From: a virus
Length of the DNA: 29,776 bases
Virus record (IMG/VR): IMGVR_UViG_3300025860_000056
Span: 1-29,776 of that record
Strand: one strand, 5' to 3'
Every line of letters starts with the position of its first letter. Positions within the stretch are counted from its first letter, which is position 1. Below are positions 14,392 to 17,560 of the stretch, piece by piece. Made by a program: the position numbers and the translations under genes. The notes beneath the pieces are model-generated. The model saw only the letters and a program-made list of their open reading frames with translations. It did not search any database and was not told the origin of the DNA.

Positions 14392-14546
14392 AGTATCCTC
14401 CCACGAATATAATCCATAACCGATTTAGACCCCTTAGCATACTCTCTAATTTGCTTGGCCTCGTCCTTTGTTACCCTTAACTTTATCTCTACGTTAGAAG
14501 GTGACCCAGCTCTATATGCTGGGCCTGTTCTCTTTTTAAATTCCAT
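14388..14546 (-). CDS. small ribbon-helix-helix-type DNA-binding protein
   Basis: This 52-residue protein begins MEFKKRTGPAYRAGSPS and continues NVEIKLRVTKDEAKQIREYA and then SKSVMDYIRGRIL. A short beta strand (VEIKLRV) followed by two helices with hydrophobic Ile/Tyr/Val/Ile positions is the Arc/CopG/MetJ pattern. Such dimers bind operators through the paired strands. It sits in the middle of the leftward block and could regulate it. The start overlaps the ATPase gene by 11 bases. Confidence 0.62.
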   Translation of the reverse strand: MEFKKRTGPAYRAGSPSNVEIKLRVTKDEAKQIREYAKGSKSVMDYIRGRIL

Positions 14547-15192
14547 AGTATTCTCTTATCTTCTTATCAATTTCGTAAAGTTCGTTATCCATCTCATTAT
14601 CTAGCATTCCTCTAGGTGCCTTAACTACTTGCTGACCTGTTAGAGAAGAGTATATTTTATAAACCTCATCAACTCTTTTAGCCAGCAAACATATTGTAAA
14701 ACGTCCCTCAATACATCCCTTGTCATCTAACATCTTGCCAATAGTCTTAGGCTTGATGTTTCCTACATCGTCTGTATCTGTATGGTGTAACATGTACACA
14801 GTTACGTTTTCGGGCAAGCTTCTAAGGTAGTCAATAAACAACCAGAAGTGTTGACCTAATTCGTTGAACTTATCAAAGCCCTTTTCATGAGCTCTTGCAA
14901 AGAATTGATTAGCTAACACATACTGACTATCATCAATTATGATTTTATCTTTACCTGAATCAAGAGCTAAATTGATAGCTCCTTTAATTGATCCATAAAC
15001 ATTCTCACGCTTAGGAATATAAAAAGAACCGTCAGGTCTATCCTTCTCTAATTTAGGCCAATTCTTCAAGCTAAACGGCGGCTTCTTTCCATCTACGCTA
15101 ACTATTAGAGTTTCCTTTGGTGGTAGCTTTTCTAAACTACTACTCTTTCCACCGCCAGAACCTCCTAACAGCATTATTAATTCACTCATCAT
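14536..15192 (-). CDS. Sak4-like RecA-fold recombination ATPase
   Basis: This 218-residue protein has Walker A GGSGGGKS (residues 10-17), Walker B KIIIDDS (D87-D88) and a following VTVYMLHHTD strand, which fits the AAA_24/Sak4 family of phage RecA-like single-strand annealing ATPases. These are usually encoded near an SSB-like protein and an exonuclease, exactly as here. The likely job is annealing or strand invasion in recombination-dependent replication. The N-terminus has two consecutive ATG codons; the second (15189) has the better six-base spacing from AAGGAG. A G/C hairpin lies just upstream. A kinase-like ATPase is the alternative. Confidence 0.75.
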   Translation of the reverse strand: MMSELIMLLGGSGGGKSSSLEKLPPKETLIVSVDGKKPPFSLKNWPKLEKDRPDGSFYIPKRENVYGSIKGAINLALDSGKDKIIIDDSQYVLANQFFARAHEKGFDKFNELGQHFWLFIDYLRSLPENVTVYMLHHTDTDDVGNIKPKTIGKMLDDKGCIEGRFTICLLAKRVDEVYKIYSSLTGQQVVKAPRGMLDNEMDNELYEIDKKIREYYGI

Positions 15193-16253: not shown

Positions 16254-16559
16254 TTATTGTTGTAAAATTGTTGTGTATTTTTCATCGCCATAGCCATCGC
16301 CAGAGCCATAGCCATCGCCATAGCCATAGCCAGAGCCAGAGCCATCGCCATCGCCATAGCCAGAGCCAGAGCCACCGCCATCGCCAGAGCCATAGCCATC
16401 GCCATCGCCATCGCCATAGCCAGAGCCATAGCCATCGCCATAGCCATCGCCATAGCCAGAGCCAGAGCCATAGCCATCGCCATAGCCATAGCCAGAGCCA
16501 TAGCCAGAGCCATAGCCATCGCCATAGCCATAGCCAGAGCCATAGCTAGAGCTACTCAT
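16254..16559 (-). CDS. low-complexity (Tyr/Ser/Asp)-Gly dipeptide-repeat protein
   Basis: This 101-residue product starts MSSSSYG and ends with the unique tail DEKYTTILQQ. Residues 6-92 are 43 X-Gly pairs plus a final Asp, where X is Tyr (18), Ser (12), Asp (12) or Gly (1). Its ATG overlaps the stop of the gene upstream by 8 bases, and the next gene starts 15 bases after its stop, as expected for an operon member. The other frames of this DNA are also open but lack this context. The Tyr-Gly/Ser-Gly composition resembles disordered, phase-separating segments of RNA-binding proteins. Function unknown; the SSB gene follows directly. Confidence 0.6.
   Translation of the reverse strand: MSSSSYGSGYGYGDGYGSGYGSGYGYGDGYGSGSGYGDGYGDGYGSGYGDGDGDGYGSGDGGGSGSGYGDGDGSGSGYGYGDGYGSGDGYGDEKYTTILQQ
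16284..16544. repeat. hexanucleotide tandem array, about 43 units
   Basis: On the plus strand the array is made of six-base units GCCATA, GCCATC or GCCAGA (one GCCACC), about 261 bp long. The glycine codon is always GGC on the coding strand while the first codon alternates among TAT, GAT and TCT. Because the period is six, slippage adds or removes whole dipeptides without frameshift. It borders degenerate units (AGC for GGC) at the 5' end of the gene. Confidence 0.92.
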
Positions 16560-17150: not shown

Positions 17151-17339
17151 CTAGAAGTCGTCACCGTACTCTTTGATGAATCGTTCGTAGTTGTATTTAC
17201 CTTGGCATTCTTCAGTAGCGGCGCGCCATAACGCTATAAAAACTTCTTTGTCTGTGTCTGCGAATCCATTAAACTCAAAGTCATGACCTTCTAAGACTTC
17301 TACTTCTAGTTCAATTTCTATTTTTACTGTGGTTTTCAT
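17151..17339 (-). CDS. small acidic hypothetical protein
   Basis: The start is placed at ATG 17339, which overlaps the upstream stop by ATGA and has GGAG eight bases before it. A longer frame would add ten residues of another context. The 62-residue product begins MKTTVKIEIELEVEVLEG and ends FIKEYGDDF: one or two beta strands, then a helix. Very acidic. No family recognised. Confidence 0.58.
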   Translation of the reverse strand: MKTTVKIEIELEVEVLEGHDFEFNGFADTDKEVFIALWRAATEECQGKYNYERFIKEYGDDF

Positions 17340-17560
17340 GTTGTTACTCCTAAATAAATCAATTCCCACTTCTGCCTCTCATCCTCATCTAACTTTCTAG
17401 CGTAGTCAATTACTCCATACCTAGATCGATCATCGTCGGCCTTGTAGCTACCCAAAATACAGCCGAGTTTTGGATGGGTGTTGATATCTAACGGCCTCAA
17501 TACAAAGCCGTAGGTATGTCTTAGCCCAGTATATTGATCGTCGTAAATGTAGTCTTGCAT
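17336..17560 (-). CDS. hypothetical protein
   Basis: This 74-residue protein begins MQDYIYDDQYTGLRHTYGFV and ends KWELIYLGVTT. It is a mixed alpha/beta, Tyr-rich domain with no recognised family. AAGGAG lies just upstream, and the strongest leftward promoter-like sequence of the window (17584-17611) precedes it, so it likely opens a transcript. Confidence 0.6.
   Translation of the reverse strand: MQDYIYDDQYTGLRHTYGFVLRPLDINTHPKLGCILGSYKADDDRSRYGVIDYARKLDEDERQKWELIYLGVTT

Follow-up and report, generated by a model that had tools for sequence, protein, structure and literature searches.

The pairing of an Sm-type fold with a low-complexity segment has precedents in Hfq and Lsm4. Hfq can carry a disordered, glycine-rich C-terminal tail, as in Acinetobacter, where it contains GGFGGQ repeats whose number matters in A. 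baumannii (PMC11617691), and the acidic C-terminal tail of E. coli Hfq mimics nucleic acid (PMC5606850). In yeast, the Sm-fold protein Lsm4 has a prion-like low-complexity domain that promotes granules (PMC4522596). Here we describe a phage locus in which a gene of the DUF6948 family overlaps a gene encoding a long array of X-Gly (XG) dipeptides, found in a 29,776-base virus record (the window, meaning the whole stretch of DNA that was analysed). We propose, at a probability of roughly 0.4, that the two genes form an accessory phage module consisting of an Sm-like, nucleic-acid-binding core and a sticker-and-spacer polymer made from the overlapping gene.

The XG gene of the window (16254-16559, minus strand) encodes 101 amino acids laid out as MSSSS-(XG)43-DEKYTTILQQ. 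By codon count, its array (16287-16544, minus strand) consists of 43 hexamers encoding (Y/S/D)G, with GGC as the glycine codon in 43/43 units and TAT, TCT, GAT and GGT as the X codon in 18, 12, 12 and 1 of them, respectively; the first-pass annotation, which had reported 43 in-frame hexamers with these codons, was thus exact on recount. Tandem Repeats Finder (TRF) reported a single array in the window, of period 6 and 44 copies (16283-16546). Chance origin of the repeat could be ruled out, as the longest run of GG at every sixth base reached 43 in the window, and none of 200 first-order Markov sequences modelled on it exceeded 5.

Directly upstream, with an 8-nt overlap, lies the DUF6948 gene (16914-16552, minus strand), whose 120-aa product passes the Pfam profile PF22253 with 87.2 bits against a curated cut-off of 27 (E 8e-25) and is therefore a member of a family to which Pfam gives no function. 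On the other side, a gene on the same strand (16238-15711) starts 15 nt past the XG stop codon, so the coding array does sit in an operon-like gene run, as had been proposed. That downstream gene had been called SSB-like, and its C-terminal DDSDSMPF resembles SSB tails; Pfam, PHROGs and NCBIfam profiles gave it no SSB assignment. The suggested link of the array to an SSB gene did not hold up, since downstream genes differ among relatives, with recombination genes recurring and none constant, and it is DUF6948, on the array's opposite side, that serves as the constant partner. The recombination neighbourhood, outside the module, includes a Sak4-like annealing protein gene (14536-15192, minus strand; phrog_2872, E 7e-60), and an exonuclease gene is also among the further genes of the window. 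A small protein matching DarA_C, involved in defence against restriction (E 5e-8), is encoded at 17336-17560. This genomic setting bears on the idea that the XG protein is a virion or adhesion tail, serving as a flexible anchor or particle decoration. Tail-fibre and membrane-associated genes do adjoin the pair in Pectobacterium phages, but recombination and replication genes neighbour it in the window and many relatives and the copy in the Rheinheimera Barba phages lies near an exodeoxyribonuclease gene, and we regard this idea as very unlikely.

The association of the two genes is seen in both search directions. Among 77 viral-contig loci retrieved with the window's DUF6948 protein, 75 have an XG array downstream of DUF6948, mostly less than 160 nt away, which contradicts the outcome that the first-pass annotation had named as speaking against its proposal, namely an array missing or frameshifted in most relatives. 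Bacterial and archaeal assemblies carry the array at 26 of 28 DUF6948 loci, a few of the arrays being short or degenerate, and DUF6948 occurs in just 4 of 201 genomes of one bacterial family, as mobile elements would predict. Conversely, a search for the array DNA pattern alone returned to DUF6948, which a custom HMM detected at 96 of 124 loci (nearly all of these from the array-only pattern search, five being phage records obtained via DUF6948). Of the 28 other loci, 20 have less than 300 nt of upstream DNA, and among the remaining eight, five match PF22253, two above the Pfam cut-off and three below it; a search for DUF6948 at array loci L150 and L187 (L numbers denote our loci and contigs) found none. 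DUF6948 and the XG array are thus a two-gene phage module, and with more than 150 contigs carrying an XG array, the earlier view that such repeats are rare in phages finds no support. No paper naming DUF6948 was found in the open-access literature and none on XG arrays was identified there, a term search of the Barba genome paper found no mention of repeats or proteomics, and PADLOC, NCBIfam and PHROGs held no match to the XG pair, together pointing to an association that appears undescribed in the open-access literature.

The junction of the two genes is itself patterned. In 51 of 76 array ORFs (window included), the XG start codon lies close to the DUF6948 stop codon at an offset of exactly 10 nt upstream, within the codon for the invariant C-terminal Trp of DUF6948; in the window and its sister contig, the XG ATG is found 5 nt, not 10 nt, before that stop codon, in a different frame. 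In one case, contig L010, the DUF6948 and XG proteins are fused in frame, which agrees with joint action and may equally be a one-base sequencing error. In Iodobacter phage PhiPLPE (L202, 1157 onward) the XG ORF is without annotation, and in CV-1-33 (L200, 1843-2088) annotation has placed the gene in a frame other than that of XG (MAMAMALALA). Five tandem XG genes occur on one contig (L086:1681-2968), with differing arrays and common ends (MGLKAFLKF... and EPNLTSAGATVVEE), and a further low-complexity protein with KA.SDYG-type repeats is encoded near XG genes at L157:2720-3175. In elements of gut Bacteroidota and Clostridia, a conserved domain extends the XG protein beyond its array, with 42 instances among the loci examined (L058:3558-4016 and 41 others) bearing the motifs FAHG.TL..A and LTGSC..GR. 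The AlphaFold model of this domain has a pLDDT of 94; the domain had no match in Pfam, PHROGs or NCBIfam, and fold searches gave no clear match either (best Foldseek E 0.33; VIA Z not above 4.1).

The AlphaFold model of DUF6948 (pLDDT 90.5) is a small beta-barrel, and Sm/LSm chains predominate among its PDB matches, with a few other chains further down; the best match was 6ppn_H (E 3.7e-3, prob 1.00). VIA gave a Z of 6.8, in a range below 8 where scores can reflect a common arrangement. Among the structures nearest to the model is the ocean-metagenome Sm-like protein of PDB 3by7, at about 14-17% identity, for which we know of no XG partner. At the sequence level, DUF6948 had no LSM match in Pfam, the best E in a PDB sequence search was near 1, and hhalign against archaeal LSm placed the Sm1 region in register without significance (prob 2.6, P 0.018, 34 columns). 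We therefore call the predicted fold of DUF6948 Sm-like without assigning the protein to the Sm family, as sequence homology to LSm was undetected. The predicted Sm/LSm/Hfq-like fold would suggest that DUF6948 probably oligomerises and binds nucleic acid, although its charge is close to neutral (-3 for the window's protein, median of +1 for the family), so that nucleic-acid binding is not evident.

The arrays seem to be preserved as protein. Anchoring on DUF6948 gave a set of 55 arrays, in which diversity inside an array was 0.42 and 0.50 at unit positions 1 and 2 (the first two bases of the X codon) and 0.07 at each of the silent positions 3 and 6. Neutral homogenisation would give equal silent and replacement diversity, and residue classes thus appear to be maintained. 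In the same set, six synonymous frameworks are used between loci (NNC-GGC, NNT-GGC, NNC-GGT, NNC-GGG, NNT-GGT and NNT-GGA), and Ser, Tyr and Asp account for 40%, 28% and 23% of X residues. Across loci, X falls into the classes aromatic, Ser/Asn and Asp, with Tyr replaced by Phe throughout in some arrays (L019, L047, L075). None of the 165 arrays from all searches, a set skewed by the pattern search towards GGC and Y/S/D, is without an aromatic or without an acidic residue; aromatics (Y/F/H) occupy a mean of 32% of X positions, with some in every array. The arrays are acidic, with a median charge of -9.8 per 100 aa. The arrays thus combine multivalent aromatic stickers with Gly/Ser spacers, a feature of phase-separating low-complexity proteins, and the kept composition of aromatics, Gly, Ser and Asp, which a multivalent low-complexity polymer would need, supports the first-pass annotation on this point. 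Taken together, the frame and composition of the array appear to be held by selection, with residue order free.

Two readings in which the protein is of no consequence fare poorly against these data. A DNA or RNA element, such as a recombination hotspot, an RNA structure or a repeat-binding site, would suit a simple repeat whose DNA is homogeneous within each locus; yet the glycine codon (GGC, GGT, GGG or GGA) and the last base of the X codon (T or C) change with the locus, so that the XG reading frame alone is common to the loci, and we find such an element scarcely credible. Conservation of the other frames of the array was likewise rejected, since these vary with the glycine codon between loci. 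A microsatellite that is open by chance, whether neutral or selfish (the first-pass annotation had listed a selfish repeat as an alternative), would account for rapid, slippage-like change in whole units. It is disfavoured by the retained frame, the almost constant association with DUF6948 in many lineages of phages, the residue classes kept in 165 arrays and the six synonymous frameworks, and is in our view highly improbable.

Such change is fast and proceeds in whole units. The window and a contig of the same species (L002/L119) share an identical stretch of 250 nt upstream, but their arrays have 43 and 63 X positions, respectively, and two further contigs with 98.8% identical flanks have unlike arrays (L029 and L030, subject to the caveat of metagenome assembly of repeats). 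Cultured phages dispel much of this assembly doubt. In the Rheinheimera Barba phages compared, 0-1 of 315 nt differ in DUF6948 and 0-2 in the 489-nt stretch downstream, with many array alleles that include single-unit insertions at various sites and one reordered array. In the Pectobacterium phages Ymer and Amona, DUF6948 differs at 0 of 399 positions and the compared flanks are identical, and the arrays, of 30 and 27 units, are unlike. The expectation that length would change by dipeptides is therefore borne out, as unit number differs between close relatives in whole units. Within the Pectobacterium phage group, DUF6948 differences are mainly synonymous; in L254-L258 and L203, which have matching near flanks, the gene differs by 23-38 nt, mostly synonymous, and divergence between matching flanks suggests local exchange.

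Turnover of this kind could mean that a host defence sensor or target recognises the array, new order or length allowing escape. Identical flanks with unlike arrays in two isolate sets from one or few hosts, together with frozen silent and varying replacement positions, are compatible with such a diversifying locus. Order and length change, however, and the classes of residue are kept; slippage by itself accounts for the rate, and PADLOC returned 0 defence-system profile matches, so we judge this explanation to be quite unlikely. The array was also considered as the target of a diversity-generating retroelement, a system characterised by adenine-directed substitutions, fixed length, a template repeat and a reverse transcriptase, and this was rejected, as the array varies by whole-unit insertions, deletions and reordering.

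Returning to the proposed module, the first gene would supply a conserved small beta-barrel folded like Sm/LSm/Hfq subunits and the second a flexible, acidic (X-Gly)n polymer in which aromatics would act as stickers, Gly and Ser as spacers, and Asp would provide solubility. Translational coupling of the two overlapping genes may keep their products in step, and the polymer would work with the core either as a multivalent scaffold gathering core-RNA or core-DNA complexes or as an exchange brush resembling the tail of Hfq. Replication slippage or unequal recombination would rewrite the array quickly, and selection would retain its frame and composition, not its order. Oligomerisation, nucleic-acid binding, mutual binding of DUF6948 and the XG protein, and any condensate are what we infer. 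A further step, in which the Sm-like core and a separate, hypervariable polymer selected for composition rather than order constitute a phage-encoded, RNP-like condensate system, is tentative and somewhat unlikely, and the strong acidity of the array, which need not favour droplets, counts against it. The same acidity, beside a predicted Sm-like fold, fits an XG protein acting in trans as a soluble acidic brush that competes with nucleic acid on the core and speeds release without any condensate, in line with the nucleic-acid mimicry of the acidic Hfq tail (PMC5606850) and the importance of Gly-rich repeat number in A. baumannii Hfq (PMC11617691). Such a brush has no need for aromatics at about one third of the X positions of an average array, and the acids of Hfq sit at the tail tip whereas those of the XG array are spread throughout; we hold it to be unlikely.

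If it were confirmed, a phage condensate system would constitute a natural experiment in the evolution of disordered proteins, for which alleles differing in the array alone already exist in cultured isolates. A nearly frozen partner next to an array rewritten between otherwise identical isolates offers a test of selection on disordered proteins, and cultured phages such as the Rheinheimera Barba phages and Iodobacter phage PhiPLPE allow direct testing. In its turnover, the array resembles the variable-number tandem repeat (contingency) loci of bacteria, in which unit number likewise differs between close relatives by whole units; contingency loci can switch a gene off, whereas the six-base unit never shifts the frame, so that the XG array tunes length and order instead. 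Like Hfq, the phage pair places an Sm-type fold, here a predicted one, beside acidic low-complexity sequence rich in glycine and aromatics; unlike in Hfq, the counterpart of the tail is as a rule encoded by an overlapping gene of its own, with a strict XG repeat, and the core has no detectable Sm sequence homology. With Lsm4 it shares the pairing of an Sm fold (predicted in the phage) with a low-complexity segment, although Lsm4 is eukaryotic, a single polypeptide and built of other residues. The phage pair would extend the design of an Sm core with a low-complexity tail to phages.
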